From an uncultured Lachnospiraceae bacterium (GTDB taxonomy: Bacteria > Bacillota > Clostridia > Lachnospirales > Lachnospiraceae), in contig CANPZI010000001.1 in the NCBI GenBank assembly GCA_947588995.1, positions 124,001-188,000 on the forward strand: a DNA stretch of 64,000 nucleotides. Reading direction: 5' to 3'. Shown one piece after another: positions 26,005 through 58,543 of this stretch. Position 1 is the stretch's first letter. Each line of letters begins with the position of its first letter. Both the position numbers and the translations under genes were made by a program. Below the pieces are notes generated by a model. The model ran no database searches and had not been told where the DNA came from. It worked only from the letters and a program-made list of their open reading frames with translations.

Positions 26005-27315
26005 TTAACGGCCGATGCTGTAATATTCCACGCCGGCCTCCCTCATCGCCGCCGTGTCATAGAGATTCCGCCCGTCATACACCAGAGGAATCTGCATCTT
26101 GGCCCGATAAATCTCCGGCACAACCGCCCTGATTTCTCCCCACTCCGTAAAGATAAAACAGATATGGGCATCTTGAAGGGCTTCTTCCGGAGCGTTCACA
26201 TACCGAATCGTTCCCCCGCCGCACTCTCCCTCCGGATATCTCTTGCGGAAATTGTCCGCGGCGACGGGATCGTAAGCACAGACATTGGCCCCGCTCTCCA
26301 GAAGAAGCCGCACGTTATCCAAGGAGGGCGCCTCCCGCAGATCGTCCGTACCCGCCTTGAACGCAAGCCCCAGCACCGCCGCTTTCAGGTTCTGGAACGT
26401 AATCAGGCGATTGCTCGCCTTGTGGAACAGTTTTGTCTTCTGCGCCTCGTTCACCGCCACGGCAGCCTCCACGGTGCGCAGCGTATACCCGTTCTGCTTC
26501 GCCAGATATTTGAGCGCTTTCGTATCTTTCGGGAAGCAGCTGCCTCCATACCCGACACCGGCATTCAGGAATTTCGCCCCGATCCTCGCGTCGTAGCTCA
26601 TCCCCTCCGCGACGGCTCCGATGTCCGCGCCCACCAGTTCGCACAGATTGGCGATATCGTTCATATAGGAAATCTTCAGGGCAAGGAAATCATTGCAGGC
26701 ATATTTGATCATCTCCGCCGAGCGCCTGTCGACGGACACAATCGGCAGCCCGAACGGTTCGTAGATTTTTCTAAGCGTCGCCTCAGCCTCCCTGCTCTGC
26801 GTGCCGATGATGATCCTGGCGGCGTGAAGCGTATCGTGCACCGCGGAGCCCTGTGCCAGGAATTCCGGGTTGGAGGCAACCTCGATCTTCACATCCCTCT
26901 TCAAAAAATCCCGGATAAACTGCTCCACCTTGTCGTTCGTTCCGACCGGCACTGTGGATTTCACCACGACGAGACAGTCACGCTCCACCGACTCCGCGAT
27001 CTGCCTGGACACAGTGGCAATATAACTCAGGTTGGCGGAGCCGTCCGGCTGTTCCGGCGTACCCACGCCGATGAAGATCGCCTCCGCGTCCCTGTAGGCA
27101 CCGCGGTAATCTGTCGTATAGTGCAGTCTGCCGGTGGCGTTGTTTCTGCGCATCAGTTCCTCCAGCCCCTCCTCATAGATAGGAGACACGCCGGAGGCCA
27201 TCAGCTTTACTTTATCTTCATCCACATCCACGCATGTGACATTGTGGCCTTTCTCCGCGAAGCAGACGCCTGCCACCAGACCCACATATCCCGTTCCCGC
27301 AACCGCTATTTTCAT
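26005..27315 (-). CDS. ugd: UDP-glucose 6-dehydrogenase family
   Basis: 436 residues from the ATG at 27315, where GTGYVG begins at residue 7; a longer frame to 27408 runs through the hairpin element and is unlikely to be translated. NAD-binding Rossmann start, VVKSTVPVGT (118-127), SNPEFLAQGSAVHD and GYGGSCFPKD with the catalytic Cys260 are all present. It oxidises UDP-glucose to UDP-glucuronate using two NAD. The epimerase follows by 15 bases. The ribosome site is GGGGATAGG. Just upstream lies a triple hairpin with a loop complementary to the region beside that site. It might also serve as the missing UDP-GlcNAc dehydrogenase, which cannot be excluded by reading. Confidence 0.92.
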   Translation of the reverse strand: MKIAVAGTGYVGLVAGVCFAEKGHNVTCVDVDEDKVKLMASGVSPIYEEGLEELMRRNNATGRLHYTTDYRGAYRDAEAIFIGVGTPEQPDGSANLSYIATVSRQIAESVERDCLVVVKSTVPVGTNDKVEQFIRDFLKRDVKIEVASNPEFLAQGSAVHDTLHAARIIIGTQSREAEATLRKIYEPFGLPIVSVDRRSAEMIKYACNDFLALKISYMNDIANLCELVGADIGAVAEGMSYDARIGAKFLNAGVGYGGSCFPKDTKALKYLAKQNGYTLRTVEAAVAVNEAQKTKLFHKASNRLITFQNLKAAVLGLAFKAGTDDLREAPSLDNVRLLLESGANVCAYDPVAADNFRKRYPEGECGGGTIRYVNAPEEALQDAHICFIFTEWGEIRAVVPEIYRAKMQIPLVYDGRNLYDTAAMREAGVEYYSIGR

Positions 27316-27351
27316 ACCTATCCCCATTCCGGAGCGTTTTCGCGACGGGGC

Positions 27352-27451
27352 GACGCGAATCTCAAATTCGCGTCTGCCATCAGGGGAATTTGTGACGCTC
27401 CGGCACAAATTCCCGTGTGAAAAATCAGCACATCAGTGTGATTTTTCACAC
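27352..27451 (-). promoter_or_regulatory. Three tandem perfect hairpins upstream of ugd
   Basis: In the 156-base gap between GT8 and ugd there are three successive inverted repeats without mismatches: 27352-27360 with 27366-27374 (9 bp, 5-nt loop), 27384-27394 with 27404-27414 (11 bp, 9-nt loop) and 27415-27427 with 27439-27451 (13 bp, 11-nt loop). Stem sequences differ, so this is not a direct repeat. Eight loop bases of the middle hairpin (27396-27403, CGCTCCGG) are the exact complement of 27329-27336, next to the ugd ribosome site. No T-run follows. It may be a structured leader or a small mobile repeat. Confidence 0.85.
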
Positions 27452-38367: not shown

Positions 38368-38396
38368 TATTCTGTCAAATAGCACTACCGTCTCTG

Positions 38397-43078: not shown

Positions 43079-43094
43079 GATTCCATCCCTCTGT

Positions 43095-44879
43095 TCAGTC
43101 AAAATATAGATGCGCCGCGCTCAGCACCGTCAACGCCATACTCTTCTCCGTAAAATCCCCCTGCTCAAACATCAGCCTGACATCCCCGGACAATTTCTCA
43201 TCTAATACGCCGCAGACAATCCTGTCGTCAAACATGTTCTGCAGGCACCGCCGCGTCTCTTCACTGTTTGCGAACCAGTAATCCAGCGGATTCATGGAGT
43301 CTGTATTTTCGGTTTTGAGCAGATTGCAGGCAAACTGCCGCAACAGCCTCTGTGTCGTTCTGATTTTCCGGAGCAGAATATGATCCTCTCTCGGCTTGAC
43401 GCCTCCCCATTTTTCCCAGCCGAACTCCGTCGCCATCGGATATTTTTCTTTCATCCAGCGCAGGTAAATACGATGAGCGACTCTGTACGCAAAAGGAAGT
43501 GAAAATACGGTATTCAAAAAATCCACGTCCATAAAAGGCGAAGCCGTCTCCGCATACTGCTGTCTGATCAGATAGGAGGACTGCGCCCCCAGAATGCCTC
43601 TCGTATAGATGGCGAACATCTCCTGACAGGAATATCTGGCGGTCACGGCATCGTCAAACTCATAGGAAAGCCTCTCTGAATGTTTGTGCAGGCCGAATTG
43701 CGGCTTCCCATAATTAAAATCTCTGTCATGATAAAAGGTGGACAGTATGGCATCGCCGATCATGCCGGTATGTTCAATGCCAAAGTCCTCCGTCCGCAGG
43801 GCCGCCAAAAATTGATTGCCGCCGGTAATACCCGAATAGAGCGCCGCTCCGTTATTGCGCCGTACAATCGCATCGACATCGCGCATCCAGCCGATGTCGT
43901 CCAGCGACTTATAGATATACTCATGTCCCAGGCGGCGTGCCACCCTGCCGGAAATTTTTTGATCCGCGTACCCCAGCTTGCTGTAGGACAAGTTGAGCTG
44001 ATCCGTATAGCCCATATCATGGGCGACCCAAGTCACCATCCTGCTGTCCAGACCGCCGCTGATATCCACCAGATGCCTGTAGCCGTATTCCCTGTCCTTG
44101 CCAAACTCCCGGTCAACCGCCTGCCGGAAAGCGGCGTCAACCCGCTCCACCGCCTCTTCTTCCGTCATCTGCACTTCCTGATTCGGAATCATATAATAGC
44201 TTGCTTCCTGCACGGCGCCGTCTCTGATTTCTATGACGCTGCCGGGATACACGCGGCGTATCTGGCGGATAAACGTGCTGTCGTCGATCATATAGCCGTA
44301 AGTGAGCATGTATTTCGCCGCCGTCTCGTCAAAATCATACCGGATGCCGTTGCTCTGCAGCACGCTGACCATATAAGGGATGTGATTGGACAGCATCCAT
44401 CTGTCCCCATCCGCATAGTAATACAGCGCCCGGACCGACACCTGGTCCACATAGGCCGCCACACTGCCCGCGGCTTTGTCCAGCACATAACCGCAGAATC
44501 CGCCCCGAAGCGCCTGCAAAGTCCGCGGCAGTCCCGCTGCCGCCGCGCGGGCAAAAGCCTCCGGCCAGCTTGCGGCAAAATCCCGGATATACTCACTCTT
44601 ATTATAGACATAGCCATCCAAAAAATAAATGCCGCTGCCATCCTCAAAAAGCAGGCCGTCTTCCGGAAATTTGTTCAACAGATTGGCAAACCCGGCATAT
44701 TGCCCCCGTTCTCCGCTCTCCCAGTACATGGCGTTCTTTGGGCGGACAGGCTCACCCGCGCGCAGCTTTATCGTATTGTCCACGCCGGAATCGGGATGTT
44801 CCCGCAGATATTGCATACGCAGACATTCTATATTCAGGTTTCCCGCTGCCAGCCAGCCATGCAGACTTTTCTTTTCCAT
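43095..44879 (-). CDS. Asparagine synthetase-like amide ligase lacking the nucleophile Cys
   Basis: 594 residues. The C-terminal half is a PP-loop ATP-binding synthetase: VDISGGLDSR (271-280) is the pyrophosphate loop, and the rest follows AsnB folds. The N-terminal part aligns loosely with an Ntn glutaminase domain, but residue 2 is Glu, not the required Cys, so glutamine hydrolysis is not expected. Class members without Cys2 (beta-lactam synthetase-like) form amides from other amines or use free ammonia. Lying between the aminotransferase and the CMP-sugar genes, it may amidate a uronic acid carboxyl. Distinguishing this from a scaffold role is not possible by reading. Confidence 0.8.
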   Translation of the reverse strand: MEKKSLHGWLAAGNLNIECLRMQYLREHPDSGVDNTIKLRAGEPVRPKNAMYWESGERGQYAGFANLLNKFPEDGLLFEDGSGIYFLDGYVYNKSEYIRDFAASWPEAFARAAAAGLPRTLQALRGGFCGYVLDKAAGSVAAYVDQVSVRALYYYADGDRWMLSNHIPYMVSVLQSNGIRYDFDETAAKYMLTYGYMIDDSTFIRQIRRVYPGSVIEIRDGAVQEASYYMIPNQEVQMTEEEAVERVDAAFRQAVDREFGKDREYGYRHLVDISGGLDSRMVTWVAHDMGYTDQLNLSYSKLGYADQKISGRVARRLGHEYIYKSLDDIGWMRDVDAIVRRNNGAALYSGITGGNQFLAALRTEDFGIEHTGMIGDAILSTFYHDRDFNYGKPQFGLHKHSERLSYEFDDAVTARYSCQEMFAIYTRGILGAQSSYLIRQQYAETASPFMDVDFLNTVFSLPFAYRVAHRIYLRWMKEKYPMATEFGWEKWGGVKPREDHILLRKIRTTQRLLRQFACNLLKTENTDSMNPLDYWFANSEETRRCLQNMFDDRIVCGVLDEKLSGDVRLMFEQGDFTEKSMALTVLSAAHLYFD

Positions 44880-44904
44880 AGCTCTCCGCCTTCATCTCGC
44901 CGCG

Positions 44905-46044
44905 TCATCCGACAAGCCTCAGATATTCCGCAATCTGATCCGTGACCCTCTCTATCGCTCCCGTCTCCATATAGGGATGGAACGGCAGCGAAAGCACCGT
45001 CCGGCACAACTGTTCGGTATGCGCAAAAGGCCGGTCGTCCTCCGGCAGGAGGCAGCCGGCAAAAGCCTCCTGTCTGTGCAGCGCTTTCGGATAATAAACC
45101 GCCGTGGGAATGGCTCTCTCTCTCAGGAAACTCTGCAGGCCGTCCCTTGTGCCCTCATCCGAAAGCTGTATCGTGTACTGCGCCCAGCTCGAAGTCATCC
45201 CGCTTTTGATCACGGGCGTCTTCACCCGCTCTGCCAGCCTCCGGGTATATTCCGCCGCTATTTGACCGCAGGCTTCCATCTCGCCGTCAAAAAACTTCAG
45301 TTTTTCGAGCAGCACCGCGGCCTGCAGCGTATCCAGGCGCGAATTCATGCCGATTCTGATATTGTCGTATTTATTTTGTCCTTTTCCGTGAATCCGATAG
45401 GAGCGGATCAGGTCAGCCCACTCATCATGATCCGTAAAGACGGCGCCGCCGTCCCCGTAACAGCCAAGCGGCTTCGCCGGAAAAAAGGATGTCGTCGCAA
45501 TATCTCCGAAACCGCACGCTCTCCTCGCTCCTATACGGCCGCCGAACCCCTGCGCGCCGTCTTCCAGCAGCAGCAGCCCGTATTGATCCGTGATCGCCCG
45601 AATCGCCGCAAAATCCGCGGGCTGACCGAACAGATCCACCGCTATCACCGCACGCGGTTTCAAATCCGTATGCCGGATCACATACCGGATCGCTTCCTCC
45701 AGACTCTGCGGACTGATATTGTAAGTGTCCGGCTCCACATCCGTAAAAACCGGTACGGCGCCGACCGTCGGCACAACCTCCCCGCTGGAGAAAAAGGTAA
45801 AGTCCGGAACAAACACCGCATCTCCCGGCCCGATTTCCCACGCCATCAGGGCCAGCTGCAGCGCGTCCGTACCGTTTGCGCACGCGACGCAGTGCTTTAC
45901 GCCCACATACCGCGCCAGCGCTTCTTCCAGTTCTGTGACCTGCCGTCCGCCAATAAACCGCGTGCCTGTCAATACATCCTGTATCGCCGCGTCCAGTTCT
46001 GTCCTGTGCGCCGTATACTGCGCCTTTAAGTCCCGAAACTCCAT
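44905..46044 (-). CDS. wbpE: PLP-dependent 3-aminotransferase, WbpE-like
   Basis: 379 residues from the ATG at 46044, which shares its A with the upstream stop (TGATG) and has AGAGGG nearby. DegT/DnrJ/EryC1 family: CANGTDALQLAL binds the cofactor phosphate, LLEDGAQGFGG holds the PLP Asp, and SFFPAKPLGCYGDGG contains Lys191 for the Schiff base. In Pseudomonas aeruginosa, WbpE transfers an amino group to the 3-keto UDP-GlcNAc-uronic acid made by WbpB. Neighbours of WbpB, WbpD and WbpI type in the same operon make that the best assignment. Symbol by analogy only. Confidence 0.88.
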   Translation of the reverse strand: MEFRDLKAQYTAHRTELDAAIQDVLTGTRFIGGRQVTELEEALARYVGVKHCVACANGTDALQLALMAWEIGPGDAVFVPDFTFFSSGEVVPTVGAVPVFTDVEPDTYNISPQSLEEAIRYVIRHTDLKPRAVIAVDLFGQPADFAAIRAITDQYGLLLLEDGAQGFGGRIGARRACGFGDIATTSFFPAKPLGCYGDGGAVFTDHDEWADLIRSYRIHGKGQNKYDNIRIGMNSRLDTLQAAVLLEKLKFFDGEMEACGQIAAEYTRRLAERVKTPVIKSGMTSSWAQYTIQLSDEGTRDGLQSFLRERAIPTAVYYPKALHRQEAFAGCLLPEDDRPFAHTEQLCRTVLSLPFHPYMETGAIERVTDQIAEYLRLVG

Positions 46045-46643
46045 CAGTCTGCCCTCTGTTTTCTGTCGATCTGCCGGATCGGGCAGATTCCCTGATTCCC
46101 GTCGTCCGCGTATACGCTGCCGCAATCCGGACACTGCAGCCTTTCATTCAGCACCTGTCCGCACTCACACACCCAGCCGATCCGTCTGGCGGGAACCCCT
46201 GCCATCAGCGCGTGCGGCGGCACATCTGCAGTCACCACCGCTCCTGCCGCAATCATGCAGTATCGTCCCAGTTCATGCCCGCACACAACCGTCGCATTCG
46301 CGCCGATCGTCGCGCCCCTGCGGACCAGCGTCCGCCTGTAGCCTGCCCTGCCCTTGGGATATTCCGCCCGAGGTGTCAGGTCATTGGTAAAAACCATGGA
46401 CGGGCCGCAAAACACCCCGTCTTCCAGCTCCACGCCCTCATATACGGAGACATTGTTCTGAATCTTGCACCCGTCTCCGATCACCGCGTGATTGGAAATA
46501 TTGACATTCTGCCCGACCGTGCAGTTTCTGCCTATCTTCGCGCCGCTTTGTACATGGCAGAAATGCCATATTTTAGTTCCCTCGCCGATGGCGACGTCCT
46601 CATCGATATAGCTGCTTTCATGGACAAAATAACGTTCTCTCAT
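46044..46643 (-). CDS. wbpD: UDP-sugar 3-N-acetyltransferase, WbpD-like, with Zn-ribbon tail
   Basis: 199 residues of left-handed beta-helix hexapeptide repeats, opening YFVHESSYIDEDVAIGEGT and including KIWHFCHV, NVNISNHAVIGDG and the active-site-region FTNDLTPRAEYP. This pattern is that of WbpD/WlbB, which acetylates the 3-amino group of UDP-2-acetamido-3-amino-glucuronate. Unlike short forms, a C-terminal tail carries Cys159, 161, 171 and 174 (CECG and CPDCG), a likely zinc ribbon. Its ATG overlaps the stop of the upstream acyltransferase by four bases. Symbol by analogy. Confidence 0.9.
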   Translation of the reverse strand: MRERYFVHESSYIDEDVAIGEGTKIWHFCHVQSGAKIGRNCTVGQNVNISNHAVIGDGCKIQNNVSVYEGVELEDGVFCGPSMVFTNDLTPRAEYPKGRAGYRRTLVRRGATIGANATVVCGHELGRYCMIAAGAVVTADVPPHALMAGVPARRIGWVCECGQVLNERLQCPDCGSVYADDGNQGICPIRQIDRKQRAD

Positions 46644-47572
46644 GCCTTTCCCGTCCCCGACTGCTCTTCTCTCTTCCGTATCACTTTGGCCGGTACGCCC
46701 ACCGCCACTTCACCGTCTCCTATATCTTTCGTCACCACGGAGCCCATACCAACCATGGTATTGCTTCCCACGCTGCACTGATTTTTGACGATACTGCCCA
46801 CCACATACGCATTGCTTCCCAGGTGCACGCTTCCGTATAGCTGAGAGCAGATAACCGTCGCATTCTTCTCTATGTGGTCATTATGCGCGATCACCGTGGA
46901 CGGTGAAATTCTGACCCCGTCTTCGATGATCGTATCGCCCATGGTCCCTCGCGCAATATTGACATGTGAATCGATGAAAACGTCATTTCCTATCGATACC
47001 CCGCCATGGTGCCGGATCATAACCTTGCGGTCATCCTCGCGCTCAAAATACCCGAATCCGTCCTCCCCGATAACCGTCAGAGCGTGTATGACACAATTGC
47101 TGCCAATGCTGACTCTGTTTTTGATCACCACATTGTCCGAGATGACGGTATGATCGCCGATGACGATATCGCCCACAATCGAGCAGTTATTCCCTATCAC
47201 CACATCTTTGCCGATGCGGACCGCGTCGCCGATCACCGTATGGATCCCCGTCTTCTCCGGCACGGCCGAATCGTCAAAAAAGTGATTTAAGACCGAAAAA
47301 AATACTGCTTTCGGAGAATTCGTGACAATCAGTCCGATGTGATCGCCCTGGCAGGCGACAGCCTTATCTGTTACGACAATCCCTGTCCGCATTGGAGAAA
47401 AGTCATAGACTTTCTCCGCAGCGGCATTTTTGATCCAGGTTATGCTGCCGCTTTTCAGGCTGTCTGCCTGACAGTAATCCGTGACGGATATATCCTCCGC
47501 CCCCTGATAGTGTACCGAGTAACCGCTGTTTTCCAAAAATGTCAGGATATCCCTGATATTGATCACCGTCAT
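46640..47572 (-). CDS. LpxD-like N-acyltransferase (LbetaH)
   Basis: 310 residues. An N-terminal domain of about 95 residues with ITWIKN resembles the uridine-binding domain of LpxD, followed by a long series of hexapeptide repeats (VIGDAVRIGKDVVIG onward) and a mixed C-terminal tail. LpxD itself makes lipid A in Gram-negatives, so here it is more likely to put an acyl group, perhaps acetyl or a variant, on an amino sugar nucleotide. It lies between WbpB-like and WbpD-like genes with four-base overlaps on both sides, so a second acylation step in the diamino-sugar pathway is the natural reading. Confidence 0.75.
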   Translation of the reverse strand: MTVINIRDILTFLENSGYSVHYQGAEDISVTDYCQADSLKSGSITWIKNAAAEKVYDFSPMRTGIVVTDKAVACQGDHIGLIVTNSPKAVFFSVLNHFFDDSAVPEKTGIHTVIGDAVRIGKDVVIGNNCSIVGDIVIGDHTVISDNVVIKNRVSIGSNCVIHALTVIGEDGFGYFEREDDRKVMIRHHGGVSIGNDVFIDSHVNIARGTMGDTIIEDGVRISPSTVIAHNDHIEKNATVICSQLYGSVHLGSNAYVVGSIVKNQCSVGSNTMVGMGSVVTKDIGDGEVAVGVPAKVIRKREEQSGTGKA

Positions 47573-48666
47573 ATTTCCCGCGCTCCGCCGAAACGCCCCG
47601 TGAAATCAGTCGTCTTACATTCTCCCAGCGGCAGCCTGACAATGCTGTCCGTCGCCGCGGACTGATAAATCGCCAGTACCAGCTCCAGCGCACGGCGTCC
47701 CGCCGCGGCGTCCACATAGGGCGGCCTGTCCTCCTCGATGGCCGCTATCACATCCGCGTACAGCGGCGTATGTCCATAGCCGTACACATTCGGCGGATTC
47801 TCATGGAACATTCTCTTCACTTCCTCCGGATCATCCAGAATATCCGAAAAGCGCCACTCCTCAATGACATTGACGGACTGGCCTCCGGCCTTGACCGTTC
47901 CTTTCTCGCCGAACAGATACAACGTTTCCTCCAGGTTGCTGGGATAGACATCCGTCGTTCCCTCTATGATGCCGTAAGCGCCGTTCTTAAATCTGATCAG
48001 CGCAATCCCCAGATCTTCCGCTTCAATATAATCATGGTTGAGACGGTCTGTCATGCCGACTACTTCCTCAATCTCGTCGCCCATCATCCAGCGGAGGAGA
48101 TCAATATTGTGAATACACTGGTTCATGAGCGCGCCGCCGTCCTGTTCCCACGTTCCCCGCCATTTGGCCCGGGAATAATACGCATAATCCCGCGTCCATC
48201 TGATATGCGCCGTGCCGTAAAGCATCCTGCCGAAGCGCTCCATCTCGATAGCCTCCCGGATTTTCTGAATGGATTTATTGAAACGGTTCTGATGGCAAGC
48301 GCATACTTTCAGATGCTCCCTCTCCGCCGTCTCTATTATTCTGTCCGCGTCGGCAAGCGACAGAGCGATGGGTTTCTCGATAATCAGATTGGCATGGCCG
48401 ATGGTCATGCAGTCAAGCGCGATCTGCGCGTGCCTGCCGCTCTCCGTCGCAATCGCCACGAGCTCCGGCTTTTCCTGTTCCAGCATCTGCTTATAGTCCG
48501 TGTAGCATTTCACGGAAGCCGGCAGCCTGAACTTCAGTATCTTGTCTTTCATATTGTGCTCGTTGACGTCACAGATCGCCACGATATCCAGATTGTTCTT
48601 CTGTGCCGCCACGATATGGTTCGGCGATATTCTTCCGCATCCTATCAAAGCATATCTCATCATCAT
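47569..48666 (-). CDS. wbpB: Gfo/Idh/MocA UDP-sugar 3-dehydrogenase, WbpB/WlbA-like
   Basis: 365 residues, with several alternative ATGs at the start; 48666 is chosen because AAAGG lies six bases upstream. LIGCGRIS gives the NAD-binding glycine pattern, LIIEKPIAL (about 94-102) the family's EKP motif, and GGALMNQCIHNIDLLRW the catalytic Lys/His-like region. WbpB oxidises C3 of UDP-GlcNAc uronic acid, with WbpE as coupled partner that regenerates the cofactor through 2-oxoglutarate chemistry. The gene stop overlaps the next ATG. Symbol by analogy with Pseudomonas and Bordetella pathways. Confidence 0.9.
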   Translation of the reverse strand: MMMRYALIGCGRISPNHIVAAQKNNLDIVAICDVNEHNMKDKILKFRLPASVKCYTDYKQMLEQEKPELVAIATESGRHAQIALDCMTIGHANLIIEKPIALSLADADRIIETAEREHLKVCACHQNRFNKSIQKIREAIEMERFGRMLYGTAHIRWTRDYAYYSRAKWRGTWEQDGGALMNQCIHNIDLLRWMMGDEIEEVVGMTDRLNHDYIEAEDLGIALIRFKNGAYGIIEGTTDVYPSNLEETLYLFGEKGTVKAGGQSVNVIEEWRFSDILDDPEEVKRMFHENPPNVYGYGHTPLYADVIAAIEEDRPPYVDAAAGRRALELVLAIYQSAATDSIVRLPLGECKTTDFTGRFGGAREI

Positions 48667-48718
48667 CACACGCCTTTCTCCTCCGCAGCCGTCCTGTCCG
48701 TCCTCCGGTTGAAATCTG

Positions 48719-49789
48719 TCAGATCAGCCTCTCCTGCCGCAGTGCGCTTACCATTTTCGCGGCAGCGCAGCCGTCCCCGTAATACTTCGGGCGGTCCTCT
48801 TTCGCGACGCGCGATGCGCCCTGTGCGAACGCAAGCGCCTCCGCCACACTCTCCGCACTCTGCGGATCCACCTTGCGGATCCAGCCATCCTCAAGCAGGT
48901 CCGGCCAGACATCCAGATCCAGCATGAACAGGCACCTGGCTCCCGCAAAGGAAGATTCCTTGGAAACGCCGCCGGAATCCGTCAGAATCAGCCGGGCCCG
49001 GTTCATAAGCCGCACCATCTCCACATACCCTAACGGCTCTGTCATCTCAAAATTAACAATGGATGCGGCTCTCTGCATCAGCTCGTACTCTTCCAGACAT
49101 TTTCTGGTCCGCGGATGCAGCGGACAGATCACTTTGCCGTCCATCTTCTCCACCAGATCGAGAATACTCTCCATGCGCGCCCTGTCCGCGGTGTTCTCCT
49201 GTCTGTGCCAGGTCATCACAATAATTTCTTCCTCCGCAGGCACCGGGGCAATCCGCCCGGCTATGGACAGATACGTATCATACATGATATCGCCGGTCAC
49301 ATATGCGATAGCACCCAGCCCTTCCTGCTGCAGATTCCGCATCGATACCGTATCGGGACAGAAGAGCGCGGAAGACAGATGATCCGTCACAATACGGTTG
49401 CACTCCTCCGGATTGGACTTGTCATGCACCCGCGGCCCCGCCTCCACATGCGCTATGGGAATACACAGCTTGGCCGCTGTCATAGCGCCGGCTGCCGTCG
49501 TATCGGTATCGCCGTACAGGATAACCAGATCCGGGGGATGATCTGTCAGCTCCCTCTCCAGCCCGACCATCATCCTGGCCGTCATCTGCGCATGGCTGCC
49601 GCCGCCTGCAGACAGATTCACATACGGCTCCGGGATCCCCAGCTCCGCAAAGAAGACCTCAGACATGTTCTGGTCGTAATGCTGGCCGCTGTGAATAATA
49701 TTCTGCGCATATCCCGCTTTCTCCAGTTCCCGATAGAGCGGCGCCAGCTTGATAAACTGCGGTCTGTTTCCCACAATATGTGTAATCAT
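48719..49789 (-). CDS. UDP-N-acetyl sugar 2-epimerase (WecB/WbpI-like)
   Basis: 356 residues from the ATG at 49789; AAAGGG lies eight bases upstream. GT-B fold: GNRPQFIKLAPL at the N-terminus, SGQHYDQNMS, HVEAGPRVHDKSNPEE-type segment (here GPR in place of the common GLRS) with conserved Glu and Arg, TWHRQENT and TDSGGVSKES for UDP binding. WecB makes UDP-ManNAc; WbpI makes UDP-ManNAc3NAcA from the gluco form. With WbpB, WbpD and WbpE homologues in the same operon, the WbpI role is favoured, though a hydrolysing or plain WecB role cannot be excluded. Confidence 0.88.
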   Translation of the reverse strand: MITHIVGNRPQFIKLAPLYRELEKAGYAQNIIHSGQHYDQNMSEVFFAELGIPEPYVNLSAGGGSHAQMTARMMVGLERELTDHPPDLVILYGDTDTTAAGAMTAAKLCIPIAHVEAGPRVHDKSNPEECNRIVTDHLSSALFCPDTVSMRNLQQEGLGAIAYVTGDIMYDTYLSIAGRIAPVPAEEEIIVMTWHRQENTADRARMESILDLVEKMDGKVICPLHPRTRKCLEEYELMQRAASIVNFEMTEPLGYVEMVRLMNRARLILTDSGGVSKESSFAGARCLFMLDLDVWPDLLEDGWIRKVDPQSAESVAEALAFAQGASRVAKEDRPKYYGDGCAAAKMVSALRQERLI

Positions 49790-49852
49790 ATGGCTTACCC
49801 TTTCTCCAAATACCGCAAATGTCTCTCCCACGGCATCACCGGTATGGCGCCG

Positions 49853-50980
49853 TCATGCCCTCACATAGTCGACAACCGGCTTCATAACGGCCTCGATGCT
49901 GATGTGCTGCCGCGCGAAACTCCTGATCGAATCAGCCAGCTTCTCTTTGCTTTCCGCAGCCGCTTTCACTCTCTGGTAAAACGCAATGATATCCTCCGTC
50001 TTCACGATGCTCGCATCATTCGGAAATGTTTCGGCATATGGGTAATCCTCCGGCAGAACATCGATCGCACAGCCCGTAATCAGCGGCATGCCTTTGGCGA
50101 GACATTCTCTGGATTTCAGCGCGCCCAGTTTCCCATAGAATCCCACCTTGTAAGTTCCAAAAGAAACCAGCGCTATATCACTGACATTATACAGCTCGTC
50201 CAGTTCTTTCCCGGACATATTGGGATAGAAATGCACATACTCTTCCAGCCGATATCTCCGCACCAGCTCCTGATACACAGGTTTTTCGGGGCCGTCTCCC
50301 ACCAGCCGCAGTTCCACCCGGTACGGCGGCGCAGCCGGCGCATCATAATACTGATGCAGCCCTTCTATGATCCGCTCATATCCGTGGTGCCGCTGCATAT
50401 AGGCCACCCCGATCAATCCGACTTCCCTGTCGTGAAAAACGCCCTCCACCCGGGAGATACTGTCCATATTGATGCCGTTGGTCGTACGGATCGTCGGGAT
50501 GCCGAAAATCTCCCGGTCTTCCGTATAGGTCACGAGCCGGTCCACATACCTTTTCAGCCGGGGGCGATACAGCAGTTCCTTGAAATAAAAAGGCCAGGCG
50601 TTCCACTTCGCAAAATCATCCCTGTCATAGGGATAGGCAAACAGTTCAATCACAATCTTGCAGTGCGGATACAGCTCTTTCAGCTTCTTCCAGAAACGGA
50701 CATAAGCCCGATCCGCCACCGTGCGCCTGACATAGACAAAATCGGGATCCTTAAGCCGTGCCAGAGCCGCTTCATAGTCCCAGCCGATCGAAGCGGTGGG
50801 AAACAGGCCGAGCAGGCGCCGCGCCAAAGAACGGTGAAGCGCCCTGACCTCAATCTCTTCCATCTCAAAACATCTGGCGAACTCTTCCATCTGCATATCA
50901 ATCTTTCTGGCGACACCGATGGACTGCCGTCCCTCAAAATGGATATAATAACCTTTTTTCATCTCCGCACTTTTGTGCAT
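49853..50980 (-). CDS. GT4-like glycosyltransferase
   Basis: 375 residues with a GT-B layout. Early residues GYYIHFEGRQSIGVARK and later VGDGPEKPVYQELV, YNVSDIALVSFGTYK and LKSRECLAKGMPLI give the nucleotide-binding half; the usual E-x7-E is replaced by a variant with KSRECLAKG. Soluble, cytoplasmic. It sits between the HisF-like and the 2-epimerase genes, with the start ATG shortly after the HisF stop. Its position inside the amidino-sugar operon makes transfer of that sugar its most likely task, but this is context only. The start is uncertain by six residues. Confidence 0.85.
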   Translation of the reverse strand: MHKSAEMKKGYYIHFEGRQSIGVARKIDMQMEEFARCFEMEEIEVRALHRSLARRLLGLFPTASIGWDYEAALARLKDPDFVYVRRTVADRAYVRFWKKLKELYPHCKIVIELFAYPYDRDDFAKWNAWPFYFKELLYRPRLKRYVDRLVTYTEDREIFGIPTIRTTNGINMDSISRVEGVFHDREVGLIGVAYMQRHHGYERIIEGLHQYYDAPAAPPYRVELRLVGDGPEKPVYQELVRRYRLEEYVHFYPNMSGKELDELYNVSDIALVSFGTYKVGFYGKLGALKSRECLAKGMPLITGCAIDVLPEDYPYAETFPNDASIVKTEDIIAFYQRVKAAAESKEKLADSIRSFARQHISIEAVMKPVVDYVRA

Positions 50981-50991
50981 ACCTTTCTATA

Positions 50992-51765
50992 TCATCCTCT
51001 GCCGTCGTCCGCGAACAGCGCCGTGACTTCCGCGCTGTCCGGATAATTGATCAGCACCGCCCTGTTGGGCCCCCAGAACACAAAAATACTCCCGGCGGCG
51101 GCGGCGCTCGCACCGCTGTCTATCGCGCTCCTGCAGTCCTGCAGACTTCCTGCGCCGCCGCATACGATCACCGGCACTTTCACGCAGTCAGTCACCTCGC
51201 TGATCAGCTCGCAGTCATAGCCTGTCATTGTGCCGTCGCGCATAACCGTGTTGAGAAAGATCTCGCCCGCGCCGAATTCCTCCAGCCTTTTTGCATATTC
51301 TCTCGGGCTGTACTTCGTGCTGCGCGTTCCGCCGTCCGTCCTGACAACCGTTTTGCCAAACACGTTTTTCCCGACGTCCATGGCTCCCACGATACTCTGG
51401 CTTCCATAGATTCCCGCCGCTTTCTCGATCAGGTCCGGATGCTCTATGGCCGCCGTATTGATCGAAACTTTCTCAAAGCCGATGCGGAACAATGTGCCGA
51501 TATCCTCCGTCGAGGAGACGCCGCCTCCATAGCACAAAGGCATAAAACACTGTTCCGTAATTTTTTTTAGATAGTCAAAATGCGGCCCTCTGTGTGAGCG
51601 CGTCGCATCGATATCCAGAAAAATCAGTTCATCCACTTCTTTATCGTTAAAGATTCTGACAGCATTAATCGGATCTCCGACATATACCGGCCGGCGGAAG
51701 CGAACCGTCTTGACCAGTTTCCCATGATCCAGAAGAAGGCACGGAATCAATCTGTTGTAATACAT
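50992..51765 (-). CDS. HisF-like ammonia-channel synthase for sugar amidination
   Basis: 257 residues of a (beta/alpha)8 barrel close to HisF. At the N-terminus it reads IPCLLLDHG where histidine HisF has IPCLDVKDG, so the catalytic Asp11 is Leu. The second Asp is kept in GAMDVGKN. This matches HisF paralogues in wbp/wbu loci, which pair with HisH to deliver ammonia to the WbpG-type ligase and convert an N-acetyl group to an acetamidino group. HisH precedes it with nine bases between, WbpG lies before that, and no other histidine gene is present. GAGGGA precedes the ATG. Confidence 0.88.
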   Translation of the reverse strand: MYYNRLIPCLLLDHGKLVKTVRFRRPVYVGDPINAVRIFNDKEVDELIFLDIDATRSHRGPHFDYLKKITEQCFMPLCYGGGVSSTEDIGTLFRIGFEKVSINTAAIEHPDLIEKAAGIYGSQSIVGAMDVGKNVFGKTVVRTDGGTRSTKYSPREYAKRLEEFGAGEIFLNTVMRDGTMTGYDCELISEVTDCVKVPVIVCGGAGSLQDCRSAIDSGASAAAAGSIFVFWGPNRAVLINYPDSAEVTALFADDGRG

Positions 51766-51774
51766 ATCATTCCC

Positions 51775-52386
51775 TCATTCTTTTGCAAAATTTCCGAGAA
51801 GTTCCATGCCATACCGATGACTTTTCTCCGGATGAAACTGTGTGCCCATAATATTGCCCCTGCAGACGACGGAGTCGAATCTGATGCCGTACTCGGTCAC
51901 AGCCGCCGCATCCGCACGATCCCGGCACGCCGCATAATAGGAATGGACAAAATAGTATCTCTCTTTGCCGGCAAAATTCCGAAACAGCGGCAAATCCCGC
52001 TGTACGGTGATATAATCCCAGCCCATATGGGGTATTTTTAATCCCGGGTTGTCCGGAAAGTCAAACTTCTTCACTTCACCCGGAATCCAGCCCAGTCCGG
52101 CACAGTCCCCCTCCTCACTGTATTCCAGCAGAAGCTGCATACCGAGACAAATCCCCAGAATCGGTGTCTTTTTCTCCAAAACCTGCTCGTTTAAAACATC
52201 CGCAAGTCCGCTGTCCCTGATCACCTGCATCGCCTTTTTGAAATGACCGACGCCCGGCAGAATCAGCTTGTCCGCCGCTCTTATTCGCGATATCTCCCCG
52301 GTGATCTCGCTCTCGCAGCCGAGATATTTCAGCATGTTCTGCACGGAATACAGATTTCCCATGCCATAGTCTACTATCGCGATCAT
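51775..52386 (-). CDS. HisH-like glutamine amidotransferase
   Basis: 203 residues, class I amidotransferase. GICLGMQ has nucleophile Cys80; GTQFHPEKS near residues 180-188 has the catalytic His and Glu. PHMGWD, conserved in HisH, is also present. It hydrolyses glutamine to ammonia and feeds it through the HisF-like barrel next door. In glycan loci, HisH/HisF pairs support the WbpG/WbuX ligase. It is the second gene of the operon, about 100 bases after the WbpG-like gene, and nine bases before the HisF-like gene. Confidence 0.93.
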   Translation of the reverse strand: MIAIVDYGMGNLYSVQNMLKYLGCESEITGEISRIRAADKLILPGVGHFKKAMQVIRDSGLADVLNEQVLEKKTPILGICLGMQLLLEYSEEGDCAGLGWIPGEVKKFDFPDNPGLKIPHMGWDYITVQRDLPLFRNFAGKERYYFVHSYYAACRDRADAAAVTEYGIRFDSVVCRGNIMGTQFHPEKSHRYGMELLGNFAKE

Positions 52387-52487
52387 GTTCTAAGCTCTCC
52401 ACTGTTTATGAATATGAAAATGCCACACATGAACTATATCTTCCATCAAATAAATGCAGCCAAATATGATTTTCTTCACCGCTTTTT

Positions 52488-53600
52488 TCATCCGACGCCT
52501 CCGCCAAACATTTTGGAGATTTTCCGTATCACTCCGGCCATCCAATCGTTTTCATTGTTCGGATAATCCTCATAGCGCAGCGGACGCTCTTTCATGATCC
52601 GGTCAAACTCTTCCCTGGAAATCTGCATTTTTTCTATAAAATATTCTATATCCCTCTCTATCGCTGCGGCGTCGTAGGGCGGTGTCTCGAGGACTGCCAA
52701 CGCCTCCTCACGGCTCATCTGCCCCGCCGCAATCAGGCTGGACAGGTGCATCCTGCGCTTATCATACCCGAATTTCACAGGCAATATATAGGTCTGATAG
52801 AATCTTGTATAAAAAGACTCATAATGCTTGCCGCCGTAATCACGCCACCCGTAGTTCTCCTGTAAAAATTCTTTTGCTTTTTCTTTGTCATAGGACATAT
52901 AGTCAAGAATGCTGAACCAAACAAACTTGCGCGTGAAATAGTCGTAATCCGGCCGGTCAAAATGGGGAAAACTCTTTAAGCTGCGAGAACCCTCTCCATG
53001 CATTTTGTATACGGAGCGGATGTAGCGCCAGTCGAAATGCCCCTGAGACCAGGTGCGCGGAAGAATGCTCTCCGACGCATTGTTGTAACCCATAATAATA
53101 TATTTACATTTGTACTTATGCGCCATCATACCCATCACCGGAAAGATCATGTGATCCGTAGGGATCTCACAATCCGGCGTAGACGCTCTGAAAAATGCCA
53201 GCTGCAGTGATCGGAATTCCTGCCAGTCCACCACATAGGTGTACAGATCAATCTCCAATTTTTCAAGCAGATTCTTAATATTCTGTACTGCCAGTTCGGA
53301 ATCCCATCCGTTGTCAATGTGCACCGCCAGCGGACGCAGTCCCAGTTTTTTCACCAGATACATGACATAGCAGCTGTCCACCCCGCCGCTTATGCCGACA
53401 ATACAGTCGTATTTTTTCCCCTCTCCATCCGCTTTCACTCTGGCCGCGAAAGCATCAATATCAAAACTGCGCCTCTTCTCTTCGATCTCCCGCAGTTTTC
53501 TCTCGGCATCGTGACAATGATTGCAGACTCCCTCTTCATCAAATACAATCTCTGCATCCGACGTATCCATGATACATTTGCTGCATATTTGATATTTCAT
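52488..53600 (-). CDS. wbpG: N-acetyl sugar amidotransferase, WbpG/WbuX-like
   Basis: 370 residues from the ATG at 53600, which has AGGAGA upstream; a longer frame to 53660 crosses the promoter. CSKC (6-9) and CNHC (26-29) form a zinc site, and VGISGGVDSC (68-77) is the PP-loop ATP site. This is the layout of the N-acetyl sugar amidotransferase family. It activates the carbonyl of an N-acetyl group on a UDP sugar with ATP, and ammonia from HisH/HisF converts it to acetamidino. It is first in its operon. The diamino-uronate genes downstream suggest the sugar is UDP-ManNAc3NAcA or its gluco isomer. Confidence 0.92.
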   Translation of the reverse strand: MKYQICSKCIMDTSDAEIVFDEEGVCNHCHDAERKLREIEEKRRSFDIDAFAARVKADGEGKKYDCIVGISGGVDSCYVMYLVKKLGLRPLAVHIDNGWDSELAVQNIKNLLEKLEIDLYTYVVDWQEFRSLQLAFFRASTPDCEIPTDHMIFPVMGMMAHKYKCKYIIMGYNNASESILPRTWSQGHFDWRYIRSVYKMHGEGSRSLKSFPHFDRPDYDYFTRKFVWFSILDYMSYDKEKAKEFLQENYGWRDYGGKHYESFYTRFYQTYILPVKFGYDKRRMHLSSLIAAGQMSREEALAVLETPPYDAAAIERDIEYFIEKMQISREEFDRIMKERPLRYEDYPNNENDWMAGVIRKISKMFGGGVG

Positions 53601-53636
53601 CACAACACTCTCCTCGTTCCCGCAAAAGCCTATTAT

Positions 53637-53665
53637 ATTATAGCACACTAAGCATACCAACGCAA
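53637..53665 (-). promoter_or_regulatory. Promoter of the amidino-sugar operon
   Basis: TTGCGT (53660-53665) and a perfect TATAAT (53637-53642), preceded by TGC giving a TG-n extension, are 17 bases apart on the minus strand. The -10 is about 37 bases before the ATG at 53600. It lies between the GT2 stop and the WbpG-like start and probably drives genes down to 38397. Confidence 0.75.
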
Positions 53666-53678
53666 ACGCTAAGCCGCG

Positions 53679-54587
53679 CTATCGGTACTGTCCCGATCTG
53701 CCGAACCGTCCCTTTCGGTAATCCCGTATCCCCATCCGCGTCGCCCGCACCAGCTCCGTTTTTCCCCGCAGCAGCCACAGCAGACTGCAGGCAGCGCGGT
53801 TGAGCGCATAATAAATCACAAAGAGCGGGTATCTCCCGCTCAGATGCAGCCTGCTGCACAACAGCCAGTTCCGTGCGATATAGTATGCGCACAGCGGGCT
53901 GTCCGCGCCGCGGGTGCTCGCGCCGACCTTGTGATACATGAGAGCCGTCGGGCAATAATACATACGGATTCCTTTTTCCTGCAGGCGGAAGCTGTACTCC
54001 GTGTCCTCATAATAGAGAAAAAAGCGCTCGTCCAGCACGCCGGCTTCGCGGATCACCGACATCGGCAGAAGCAGACAGCAGCCCGGCGCGAAAGCGATCT
54101 CCCGCTCCCTGTCATACTGTCCCTCATCCTCCTCATTCAGACCGATATGCCGCACTTTCCTGATCACCGGCGACATCTCTCCTCCGGCGGACCAGATACG
54201 TCTCCTGTCGTCGCTGTAACAGATCTTGGGCGCGATGACGCTTCCCGGATGCCTGTCCGCGCACGCCGTCAGTTCCCGCAGCATATCGGGGGCAAGCTCC
54301 GTATCGTTGTTGAGGAGCATCACATAATCCGCGTCCCACTCCTGCGCCCTGCGGATGCCCGCATTGTTGGCATAGGAGAAGCCGTAATTGTCATCCAGAG
54401 CGATCACTGTCACACTGTCGTCTGCTCCGTACCGCTCTTTCAGAATCCGCACGGAGTCGTCCGAAGATGCGTTGTCCGCCACTATGATCCGCAGTTCACC
54501 GGCGAACCCGTTTCCCCGGATGGATTCGATACACGCCTCATTATACAGTTTTCCGTTATAGTTCACCAGTATCACCGCCAGCTTCAT
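53679..54587 (-). CDS. GT2 rhamnosyltransferase-like
   Basis: 302 residues. AVILVNYNGKLYN, VADNASSDDSV, MLLNNDTELAPD and FFLYYEDTEYSFRLQEKG are hallmark segments of the RfbN/WbbL-type GT2 enzymes that transfer rhamnose or related deoxy sugars. The C-terminal region has a hydrophobic stretch (about 240-265) that may contact the membrane. Its ATG overlaps the stop of the GT4 gene upstream (ATGA) and it is the last gene before the promoter of the next operon. No dTDP-rhamnose genes are seen here, so the donor would come from elsewhere if it is rhamnose. Confidence 0.92.
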   Translation of the reverse strand: MKLAVILVNYNGKLYNEACIESIRGNGFAGELRIIVADNASSDDSVRILKERYGADDSVTVIALDDNYGFSYANNAGIRRAQEWDADYVMLLNNDTELAPDMLRELTACADRHPGSVIAPKICYSDDRRRIWSAGGEMSPVIRKVRHIGLNEEDEGQYDREREIAFAPGCCLLLPMSVIREAGVLDERFFLYYEDTEYSFRLQEKGIRMYYCPTALMYHKVGASTRGADSPLCAYYIARNWLLCSRLHLSGRYPLFVIYYALNRAACSLLWLLRGKTELVRATRMGIRDYRKGRFGRSGQYR

Positions 54588-55732
54588 AACGTCGTCTCAT
54601 CTCTCCTGTCCCGGCCGGCAAATGCCTCCGTCAGCACCCGGTAATATTGTTCCGTCAGCCGCATCTTATCATATGCGCCGAAATCCACCTCCGCTATCCT
54701 GTCGGCCGGCGCTTCCATCACGCGGATCCACTCATCCGCATCATAGGGATCTCTCACGTAATTGGCCTTGTGCTGCGTCACCTCGGGAATACACGTCCTG
54801 TCCGTCGTGATCACCACCGTTCCGAACAGCATGGCCTCGATGACAGGCATACCGAACCCCTCAAAGACGCTCGGAAAAAGAAAGGCTCTGCAATACTTGT
54901 ACAGTGCGTTCCGCACGTCGTCCCCGACAAAACCGGTGAGAATCACTTCCCGCTCCAGGCCCCGCTCCCTGATCCTCGTCTCCAGTTCTTCCCTGCTCTC
55001 ACCGTTCACGCCGGAGATCAGCAGTTTGTGCGGAAGAGCAAGCCCTCGCTCCCTGATCCTCTCCATCACCGTGATCAGCGTATCCAGATTCTTATGCGGG
55101 ATCAGCTGTGACACCGTATAATAGAAGCCCTCCTGACCGACGCCGTACCGCTCGGCTATGCAGGCAAAAGAGGCGATATTTTCCCGATCTACCGTGATCG
55201 GATTGTAGATCGCGGTGATCTTCTCCGGCCTGACATGGTATCGCTTCATGATATCCTCTCTGACCCAGCCGGAGATCGCTATGATATGACGTGACAGATG
55301 CGCATCAAGCCACCAGCACAATTTTGAGTAGGCAATCTCGTGAAAAGGATGATATTGCGGATAGTGGGCCGCCTGCAGATCGTGAATCGTATTGACATAG
55401 ACGACGCCGCCGTTTGTGAGCGGCCTGCAGTATACCGGCGCGAAGCATCTGCGTATTCCATGTTTTCGCAGGAAACGGTTCTGACAGAAAAACTGCCACA
55501 AAATGCGGCCCGCGATATTGGCGGACGTCACCCCCGTCTCCAAAAGTTCTATCCTCTCGTCCTGCCCGTAGTGCACAAGCGTCTCTTTATTGTCCTGCGA
55601 CACGAGCAGATACAGATGGAACGGCTCCTCAAGCTGCAGAAAGCCGTCCAGCAGATTTCTGATATAAAATTCCGTCCCGCCCACCTTTTTCGGGCGCAGC
55701 CACAACAGATCAACCGCGATATCCAGCATCAT
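54584..55732 (-). CDS. GT4 family glycosyltransferase
   Basis: 382 residues. The GT-B C-terminal half has YTVSQLIPHKNLDTLI, VILTGFVGDDV and LFPSVFEGFGMPVIEAMLFGT, the clear E-x7-E signature. The N-terminal half has RPKKVGGTEFYIRNLLDGF. It resembles the mannosyl/galactosyl GT4 enzymes such as WbaZ or WbdA-type. Soluble at the inner face. Four-base overlaps with both neighbours show tight coupling: DUF2304 upstream and the GT2 downstream. Donor sugar unknown. Confidence 0.95.
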   Translation of the reverse strand: MMLDIAVDLLWLRPKKVGGTEFYIRNLLDGFLQLEEPFHLYLLVSQDNKETLVHYGQDERIELLETGVTSANIAGRILWQFFCQNRFLRKHGIRRCFAPVYCRPLTNGGVVYVNTIHDLQAAHYPQYHPFHEIAYSKLCWWLDAHLSRHIIAISGWVREDIMKRYHVRPEKITAIYNPITVDRENIASFACIAERYGVGQEGFYYTVSQLIPHKNLDTLITVMERIRERGLALPHKLLISGVNGESREELETRIRERGLEREVILTGFVGDDVRNALYKYCRAFLFPSVFEGFGMPVIEAMLFGTVVITTDRTCIPEVTQHKANYVRDPYDADEWIRVMEAPADRIAEVDFGAYDKMRLTEQYYRVLTEAFAGRDRRDETTL

Positions 55733-56112
55733 TTCCGCTCTTCTCTCTCCCTGTCCCGCATCCGCTCTTCCAGATCCCGCACCCGCTTGTCCAGAATCGC
55801 CAGTTCCTGCGTCAGCGTCCTGATCTTGCGGTTCTGCCTGGATGCGATCGATGTCAGCGACAGCAGGATCATGATGATAAAGCCTATGGAAAAGATAAAC
55901 AGGCCGTTCATATTGTCCTGAATCCCGAACACGTGAATCACCGACATCAACAGTTCAGGAACCATCACCAGTATGCCCATAACCACACCGGCCACGAGCC
56001 ACAACAGCGTATATTTTAAGTTGAGCGCTTTTTGTTTCAAAAAATACAGGATGACGACAAAATAGCAGATCACCGCGATGATCAGGCTGACTCTCAGCGT
56101 AGCAGGTATCAT
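55729..56112 (-). CDS. DUF2304 membrane protein
   Basis: 127 residues: three hydrophobic helices (about 7-25, 33-53, 68-88) followed by a charged coiled-coil tail with heptad Leu/Ile. This is the usual DUF2304 arrangement. Such proteins nearly always neighbour a DPM-like GT2, as here (overlap of four bases), and are thought to act with it, perhaps as the flippase or membrane subunit, in the same way as GtrA. Four-base overlap with the GT4 downstream as well. Confidence 0.92.
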   Translation of the reverse strand: MIPATLRVSLIIAVICYFVVILYFLKQKALNLKYTLLWLVAGVVMGILVMVPELLMSVIHVFGIQDNMNGLFIFSIGFIIMILLSLTSIASRQNRKIRTLTQELAILDKRVRDLEERMRDREREERK

Positions 56113-58521: not shown

Positions 58522-58543
58522 TCTCTCGTCTCCGTTCACGCCG

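Follow-up and report, generated by a model that had tools for sequence, protein, structure and literature searches.

A likely acetamidino diamino-uronate operon in a Lachnospiraceae genome, with an LpxD-like gene as a candidate half of an N-acyl exchange module

We analysed a stretch of 64,000 nucleotides from the genome of an uncultured Lachnospiraceae bacterium (positions 124001-188000 of contig C1; genome size, 3.21 Mb), hereafter the window, in which a glycan island contains a run of nine minus-strand genes that extends from 53600 to 44905 with gaps of no more than 101 bp between the open reading frames. The gene order is WbpG, HisH, HisF, a family 4 glycosyltransferase (GT4), WbpI, a Gfo/Idh-type dehydrogenase (WlbA-like), an LpxD-like acyltransferase, WlbB, and WbpE, and a gene for an AsnB-like protein lies directly 3' of the run; the LpxD-like gene overlaps the WlbA and the WlbB gene by 4 bp each (Table 1). 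A preliminary description of this DNA had named WbpG-, HisH-, HisF-, WbpI/WecB-, WbpE- and WbpD-like genes, all of which were recovered as minus-strand open frames with matches to the respective families; the GT4 gene within the run and the AsnB-like gene after it are additions to that list. We consider it reasonably probable, judging from the encoded families, that the operon directs the synthesis of a 2,3-diamino-mannuronate with a 3-acetamidine and also encodes one half of a module for N-acyl exchange.

The first three genes form an amidination set. The WbpG-like protein scored 313 bits against the WbuX model TIGR03573 (cut-off, 203.2) and was the only WbuX match in the genome; its open frame has a TTG start at 53660 and an ATG at 53600, and protein P0121 likewise has 370 amino acids. 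The HisH-like protein reached 243 bits with TIGR01855 (cut-off, 105), while the HisF-like protein exceeded the cut-off of the AglZ/HisF2 model NF038364 (343.5 vs 310) and fell below that for true HisF (204 vs 294.6); the second HisF of the genome lies apart from the operon copy, on contig C3. In an alignment of 33 sequences (rows), the aspartate of the CLDV motif, which we take to be catalytic in HisF, was retained in all 25 HisF rows and was leucine in all eight AglZ-type rows (the window and comparison loci L018, L043, and L122-L126). With both NF038364 and TIGR03573 above their cut-offs, the proposed assignment of the HisF/WbpG set to amidination is supported. WbuX exceeded its cut-off in 7 of 398 genomes of the phylum and AglZ in 6 of 348 genomes of the family, each count including this genome, and a genome of the same genus (G060) had no AglZ match above cut-off. 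An amidino sugar had been called unusual for a monoderm, which agrees with the Lachnospiraceae-type genome, the absence of an LpxC match, and the rarity of the genes, although the presence of WbuX in 7 of the 398 genomes tempers the statement. In the accessible text of PMC13317340, acetamidino-pseudaminate genes are predicted in Clostridium and acetamidino-synthases for cytidine monophosphate (CMP)-nonulosonates are reported, so that amidine sugars in Gram-positive bacteria are not a new idea; our search of the open-access literature found no description of a diamino-uronate amidine version, or of WbuX, in Lachnospiraceae.

The sugar-core enzymes were compared with solved structures. The Gfo/Idh dehydrogenase scored 247 bits against 3q2k and 227 bits against 3q2i, presumably the WlbA enzymes of Bordetella and Chromobacterium, vs 35 bits for 3o9z, the entry named WbpB; on the scores of 247 vs 35 bits a WbpB identity was rejected in favour of WlbA, so that the C3 dehydrogenase announced in the preliminary description is present but is of another type. 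The acetyltransferase had its best solved match in 3mqg (190 bits), which we take to be WlbB, and the aminotransferase matched WbpE (330 bits) second only to 4qgr (368 bits), an entry titled simply DegT/DnrJ/EryC1/StrS aminotransferase. The epimerase was nearer to 8sxv, the uridine diphosphate (UDP)-GlcNAc3NAcA 2-epimerase of Thermus thermophilus (261 bits), than to the UDP-N-acetylglucosamine (UDP-GlcNAc) 2-epimerase 1f6d (132 bits). Residues Trp307, Ala18, and Tyr96 of the T. thermophilus enzyme admit the 3-acetamido uronate according to the accessible text of PMC10622841, which also covers WbpA/B/E/D/I of the Pseudomonas aeruginosa O5 Wbp pathway and cites the WlbA paper on Bordetella and Chromobacterium; Y106, D108, and W309 of the window epimerase correspond to Y96, D98, and W307 of that enzyme. 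An acetamidino diamino-uronate core is the likely interpretation of these families, with UDP-ManNAc3NAmA (UDP-2-acetamido-3-acetamidino-mannuronate) as the likely core product.

The product of the LpxD-like gene is similar to LpxD, N-terminal domain included, and remained below the LpxD cut-offs (152.5 vs 242.5 bits for TIGR01853 and 150.9 vs 207 bits for NF002060). The genome holds this one LpxD-like gene only, and the nearest named homologues of its product belong to Lachnospiraceae. Aligned His230, which presumably corresponds to the catalytic His239 of Escherichia coli LpxD, was invariant in 36 of 36 rows. With a profile of the LpxD-like protein, 77 named loci were fetched, four of which (L081, L087, L089, and L090) were dropped for lack of an LpxD-like frame above 60 bits, and four further loci came from a family sample of 150 genomes, five of which, this one included, had an LpxD-like match. 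Neighbouring frames were called within 2 kb at 60 bits for PDac, a CE4-like putative sugar de-N-acetylase, and at 40 bits for PIG-L and MaoC, thresholds that were set following an initial inspection of the loci; the rows are not independent, many being related metagenome-assembled genomes (MAGs), with L015 and L016 derived from a single MAG. In a tree of 78 rows, a clade with support of 100/99 held 40 rows, the window included, and 37 of these carried a deacetylase frame within 2 kb compared with none of the other 38, which from their likeness and hosts are taken as lipid A LpxD. Two deacetylase types, one CE4-like and the other matching PF02585, occupy the same place beside the LpxD-like gene (26 PDac and 12 PIG-L, one locus having both). 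The clade spans Bacillota, Campylobacterota, Pseudomonadota, Myxococcota, Calditrichota, and WWE3, and within it the window protein groups with L015-L018.

Further samples gave the same picture of the gene neighbourhood. A phylum sample of 398 genomes yielded 62 LpxD-like matches, from which 29 further loci were obtained (32 matches without loci were left out); among four short proteins (L155-L158, 307-312 amino acids) a deacetylase lay within 1.5 kb in all but L158, and among the other 25 frames (342-434 amino acids) at L162 only. When a quick tree of 107 rows was cut at its midpoint, 41 of the 46 rows on the side of the window had a deacetylase and none of the 61 on the other side did; L155-L158 and L162 fell on the window side, whose 46 rows include L047. 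In the family sample, which had not been picked for this feature, a PIG-L gene stood by the LpxD-like gene in four of the five matching genomes, the fifth being the present one. Viral contigs searched for the LpxD-like gene gave three matching stretches, with no relative among them. This deacetylase-linked LpxD clade appears to be the new and more surprising part of the analysis, and it is supported by gene context across several phyla.

PDac is a family of ~243 amino acids with 2,787 matches at E values up to 1e-8; among the relatives listed, 118 of 120 had no Pfam domain, and the nine that were named by their source were all called 'hypothetical protein'. Against solved structures its profile matched CE4 deacetylases weakly, and 11 of 13 matches at E values up to 10 were titled deacetylase or CE4, the other two titles being uninformative. 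Its conserved blocks (RHDxD, GHxxGLHFD, HRPS, and THP) resemble what we take to be CE4 motifs. The PIG-L neighbours matched PF02585 in nine of nine cases scanned (L019, L040, L149-L152, L156, L157, and L162), and the call in L038, L041, L043-L045, and L066 rests on likeness to these. Of the 40 clade rows, 9 had a gene for a MaoC-type hydratase no more than 2 kb away, vs 0 of the 38 others, with PF01575 confirmed in L015, L027, L040, and L150. In a Mogibacterium MAG (L034, 6639-9198, plus strand), genes for a 3-hydroxyacyl-CoA dehydrogenase and a thiolase immediately precede PDac and the LpxD-like gene. Some frames join such parts: P0013 combines the second half of PDac (residues 1-108, 169 bits) with an LpxD-like protein in one frame, P0120 has a weak match to a MaoC tail (18 bits) before its LpxD-like sequence, and P0298 and P0302 join PDac to a GNAT domain; these joined frames could include sequencing or gene-calling artefacts.

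WbpG and the LpxD-like gene were found together only at some loci (L018, L030, L043, L150, L162, and the window), which indicates that the LpxD-like gene tracks the deacetylase and not the amidine part; a tie to amidination was accordingly rejected for it. The five loci fetched by AglZ (L122-L126) had no PDac, MaoC, LpxD-like, or PIG-L frame. At L162 (genome G501) and L150 (genome G049), WbpG-like genes stand beside PIG-L and LpxD-like genes, and the amidine and acyl-exchange modules thus meet repeatedly.

In L015-L018, PDac separates WlbA from the LpxD-like gene, which MaoC directly follows, whereas the window has neither gene at these places. The PDac of the window has no LpxD-like neighbour and is 58-65% identical to those of L019-L023, L025, L026, and L028 and 40-44% identical to those of L015-L018, L024, and L027. 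Since PDac and the LpxD-like gene of the window each lack the usual partner and share one glycan island, the arrangement suggests that they work together. The membrane protein encoded beside the window PDac (47-1990, minus strand) is 60% identical to one beside PDac in L028. A VTC-domain protein at 32281-33767 (minus strand) has 72% identity to its counterpart in the same PDac/LpxD-like locus, L028, and the DUF4956 protein beside it looks common to L028 too. Elsewhere on the contig is another PDac, of divergent sequence (L004, 13919-16729, minus strand), beside an AsnB-like frame with an MCG start.

Comparison of the loci also bears on which nitrogen is acylated. In L017 a formyltransferase (PF00551; 11341-12066, plus strand) takes the slot of WlbB, and PDac, the LpxD-like gene, and MaoC are retained, so that the acyltransferase of the WlbB slot and the LpxD-like protein probably serve different nitrogens. 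Among the six genomes with a syntenic operon, two have WbpG, namely the present one and the L018 genome, and WlbB accompanies it in each. Given the L017 exchange, the occurrence of WbpG only with WlbB, and the expectation that WbpG needs a 3-acetamido group, it is most likely that WlbB acts on N3 and the LpxD-like protein on N2.

The pathway that we propose would begin with oxidation of UDP-GlcNAc to UDP-N-acetylglucosaminuronic acid (UDP-GlcNAcA) by a TviB-like dehydrogenase encoded outside the operon. Oxidation at C3 by WlbA, amination by WbpE, and 3-N-acetylation by WlbB would follow, and C2 epimerisation by WbpI would give a nucleotide-activated 2,3-diamino-2,3-dideoxy-mannuronic acid. WbpG, assigned by family and residues, would then amidinate the 3-acetamido group at the expense of ATP with ammonia delivered from HisH through HisF2. 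The de-N-acetylase encoded in trans (CE4-like, 2743-2012, presumed cytosolic) would free one nitrogen, most likely N2, which the LpxD-like protein would re-acylate, probably with an (R)-3-hydroxyacyl group such as 3-hydroxybutyryl; the AsnB-like protein may thereafter amidate the C6 carboxylate, and the GT4 protein would add the sugar to a glycan of the cell surface. The idea of a non-acetyl group on one nitrogen, raised in the preliminary description, is supported from gene context by the deacetylase counts (37 of 40 vs 0 of 38 rows); the group is perhaps 3-hydroxybutyryl, for which butyrate fermentation is a possible source in those relatives that retain the MaoC hydratase. Our more general proposal is tentative: a de-N-acetylase, either the CE4-like type that Pfam does not recognise or PIG-L, together with an acyltransferase of the LpxD clade, may constitute a widespread and undescribed N-acyl exchange module for surface sugars, which here would give a 2-(3-hydroxyacylamido)-3-acetamidino mannuronic acid or its amide.

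Several observations weigh against this scheme. In the window no deacetylase adjoins the LpxD-like gene, which makes it one of three exceptions in the clade; the others are L049 and L033, whose protein is an exact duplicate of the one that the same genome encodes at L037. The evidence that PDac is a CE4 enzyme is weak (best E value 2.7e-4, over residues 56-128 only); the window PDac had no Pfam match, and that of L015 scored 16.5 against the PF01522 cut-off of 23.1. For 31 of the 40 clade rows, the 2-kb neighbourhood yielded no MaoC. PF01575 did not match anywhere in the present genome, which leaves the 3-hydroxyacyl donor unexplained here. L027 has no WlbB-like gene in 20.9 kb and is not explained by the N3/N2 scheme. 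With respect to the sugar core, the UDP-GlcNAc 6-dehydrogenase (WbpA) is absent from the operon, and the epimerase passes the wecB model TIGR00236 (232 bits; cut-off, 210), its NCBIfam name alone being UDP-GlcNAc 2-epimerase. The window enzyme has Leu29 at the position of Ala18 and lacks the R302/E306 pair; the epimerases of L015, L017, L018, L024, and L027 equal it at the compared positions, except that residue 306 is Ile in three of them. With respect to amidination, the AglZ loci L124 and L125, both short contigs, contain no diamino-uronate gene, and L126 contains WlbA only.

Among the alternatives, the one that survives best, to which we give a lesser chance, is that the operon makes plain UDP-ManNAc3NAmA as in P. 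aeruginosa O5, with both N-acyl groups derived from acetyl-CoA and the LpxD-like gene a leftover or a servant of another sugar of the island. The operon is indeed devoid of PDac and MaoC, both of which lie beside the LpxD-like gene in L015-L018, and the genome of any PF01575 match, but the LpxD-like frame is intact, with its 4-bp overlaps on both sides and the invariant His230 kept, and the genome retains a PDac that stands without the kind of LpxD-like neighbour such genes usually have.

It is unlikely that WlbA oxidises UDP-GlcNAc itself and that the product is a non-uronic 2,3-diamino hexose with an amidine. This alternative would account for the lack of a 6-dehydrogenase in the operon and in the operon regions retrieved for the syntenic relatives L015, L017, L018, L024, and L027, and for the match of the epimerase to the UDP-GlcNAc 2-epimerase model; yet the solved structures most similar to WlbA and WbpI are of enzymes that act on uronates, and more distant loci such as L021 carry a dehydrogenase within the cluster. 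Furthermore, two matches of the 6-dehydrogenase family occur elsewhere in five of five genomes with a syntenic operon and in this genome, where one is TuaD-like and lies in the window and the other is TviB-like and lies on the same contig, ~65 kb from WbpG (498 bits with the TviB equivalog, whose cut-off is 592). The TuaD-like enzyme was rejected as WbpA (TuaD, 487 bits; TviB, 45.8). Because the genome has two such dehydrogenases and the operon none, the uronate reading depends on an enzyme encoded in trans, and a uronate nevertheless remains the likely product on the basis of these family assignments. The operon had been called complete, and this applies to the core set but not to WbpA, whose 6-dehydrogenase step must come from elsewhere.

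Slightly less probable again is that WbpG, HisH, and HisF2 amidinate another sugar of the island, for example a CMP-activated ulosonic acid, and not the WbpI product. A cytidine triphosphate (CTP) transferase gene downstream (41019-41714), the different places of the amidination genes in the window and L018, and the lack of a full diamino-uronate set in three of the five other AglZ loci (L124-L126) would fit such a role, for which acetamidino-synthases acting on CMP-nonulosonates offer a precedent in the accessible text of PMC13317340. The amidination genes, on the other hand, run directly into GT4 and WbpI, the other two AglZ loci (L122 and L123) pair the set with WlbA, WlbB, and a dehydrogenase, and among syntenic genomes WbpG appears only with WlbB. 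A role of the LpxD-like protein in a lipid A pathway of a diderm organism, suggested by its similarity to LpxD including the N-terminal domain, is highly improbable and was rejected, as the gene evidence stands strongly against it (scores below the LpxD cut-offs, a clade apart from the other LpxD rows at 100/99, and no LpxC match in the genome).

The AsnB-like protein retained the SGGxDS motif of ATP-pyrophosphatases as SGGLDS and lacked the N-terminal glutaminase cysteine in three of three aligned rows (the window, L018, and L027); the gene was present in the window, L018, L024, and L027 and was not found in the L015 and L017 loci. Amide-forming relatives of AsnB exist, and by analogy the protein may form an amide at C6 from the carboxylate and either ammonia or an amine. 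Such a step would bear on the charge of the sugar, whose positive sign hinges on the state of the C6 carboxylate, free or not; the AsnB-like gene may remove that carboxylate. The operon glycosyltransferase gene adjoins WbpI in L015, L017, and L018 and belongs to the same cluster in L024 and L027; its product probably transfers the finished sugar.

A single promoter had been proposed for the run. One promoter-like match stands before the WbpG ATG and is consistent with this, but the operon itself contains five more matches on the minus strand, and the genes upstream have the same orientation, so that the transcript may start elsewhere; a scan of 44700-60500 gave 21 matches vs 12.1 expected (standard deviation, 3.6). 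Downstream on the minus strand are genes for an HMGL-type aldolase (PF00682), a CTP transferase (PF02348), and a TIGR04396 surface-carbohydrate protein, with spans of 36721-38514, 41019-41714 (CTP transferase), and 41696-43102; all three are adjacent in L015 as well, and L018 has the CTP transferase and TIGR04396 genes at its end. They might constitute a route to a CMP-activated ulosonic acid. A protein with an FkbH N-terminal domain (PF21211) is encoded at 9569-11356 (minus strand), inside the glycan island.

Table 1. Features of the window, listed along the minus strand from the upstream neighbours of the operon, followed by two genes outside it
Feature	Position	Strand	Basis or remark
GT4-type glycosyltransferase, upstream, same direction	54584..55732	-	homologues in L015, L027
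GT2-type glycosyltransferase, upstream	53679..54587	-	homologues in L015, L018, L027
Promoter-like TTGGTA-17-TATAAT before WbpG ATG	53632..53660	-	consensus match only
WbpG-like N-acetyl sugar amidotransferase, 370 amino acids from ATG	52488..53600	-	TIGR03573, 313 bits
HisH-like glutaminase	51775..52386	-	TIGR01855, 243 bits; GICLGMQ and HPEKS in translation
HisF2/AglZ-like ammonia-channel partner; CLDV replaced by CLLL	50992..51765	-	NF038364, 343.5 bits
Glycosyltransferase group 1 (GT4)	49853..50980	-	PF00534
WbpI-like UDP-2,3-diacetamido-glucuronate 2-epimerase; open frame from 49831, likely ATG at 49789	48719..49789	-	8sxv, 261 bits
WlbA-like UDP-GlcNAcA 3-dehydrogenase	47569..48669	-	3q2k, 247 bits vs 35 for 3o9z
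LpxD-like N-acyltransferase, deacetylase-linked clade	46640..47572	-	LpxD profiles, alignment, tree
WlbB-like (WbpD) N-acetyltransferase	46044..46643	-	3mqg, 190 bits
WbpE-like pyridoxal phosphate 3-aminotransferase; open frame from 46134, likely ATG at 46044	44905..46044	-	WbpE, 330 bits
AsnB-like amide synthetase; SGGLDS kept, no N-terminal Cys	43095..44879	-	alignment, 3/3 rows
PDac (putative sugar de-N-acetylase, CE4-like); candidate to pair with the LpxD-like protein from 44 kb away	2012..2743	-	profile match
TuaD-like UDP-glucose 6-dehydrogenase	26005..27408	-	TuaD, 487 bits (cut-off 700); TviB, 45.8 bits

The proposed scheme has partial counterparts in known systems. In lipid A synthesis, LpxC and LpxD carry out N-deacetylation followed by N-acylation with a 3-hydroxyacyl group; the window would share this order of reactions with an LpxD-like enzyme, while differing in a CE4-like or PIG-L deacetylase in place of LpxC, in an acyltransferase of a separate clade, and in a surface sugar as substrate. 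The Wlb system of Bordetella and Chromobacterium, which makes UDP-ManNAc3NAcA, supplies the solved structures closest to the dehydrogenase and acetyltransferase of the window, on the identities that we assume for these entries, whereas the amidination, LpxD-like, and AsnB-like genes are additions of the window. The Wbp gene set of P. aeruginosa O5 serves UDP-ManNAc3NAmA, and the window matches it by family in the 3-dehydrogenase, 3-aminotransferase, 3-N-acetyltransferase, 2-epimerase, and amidination set, but the dehydrogenase is of the WlbA type, WbpA is missing from the operon, LpxD-like and AsnB-like genes are added, and the host is Gram-positive. Methanococcus maripaludis, whose genes are named AglX/Y/Z, likewise has an acetamidino 2,3-diamino-mannuronate with a C6 amide, for which the window offers a candidate enzyme only, and differs in that the sugar belongs to an archaeal N-glycan. 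There the archaellin sugar is ManNAc3NAmA6Thr, with threonine at C6, and the accessible text of the 2010 review PMC2952790 gives the threonine-adding enzyme as not identified at that time. Surface polysaccharides of Acinetobacter contain amino sugars with N-3-hydroxybutanoyl groups (PMC9676051 and PMC3628348, accessible text), and a polysaccharide deacetylase (Pda) is predicted to act on UDP-GlcNAc (PMC3628348, accessible text), both points of likeness to the present scheme; in those loci, however, the acyl group is put on an amine made by an aminotransferase, and the word LpxD is absent from the accessible main texts of both papers. Our open-access literature search found no description of an LpxD-linked acyl exchange.

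An amidine sugar would add positive charge to a surface glycan and could alter the encounters of gut bacteria with phages, cationic peptides, and lectins. For the wider family, the analysis provides a testable rule, namely that where a bacterium has no lipid A, a gene resembling one for a lipid A enzyme encodes the acyl half of a deacetylase/acylase pair; this rule predicts sugars with non-acetyl N-acyl groups from gene context and supplies a candidate function for the large unnamed PDac family.

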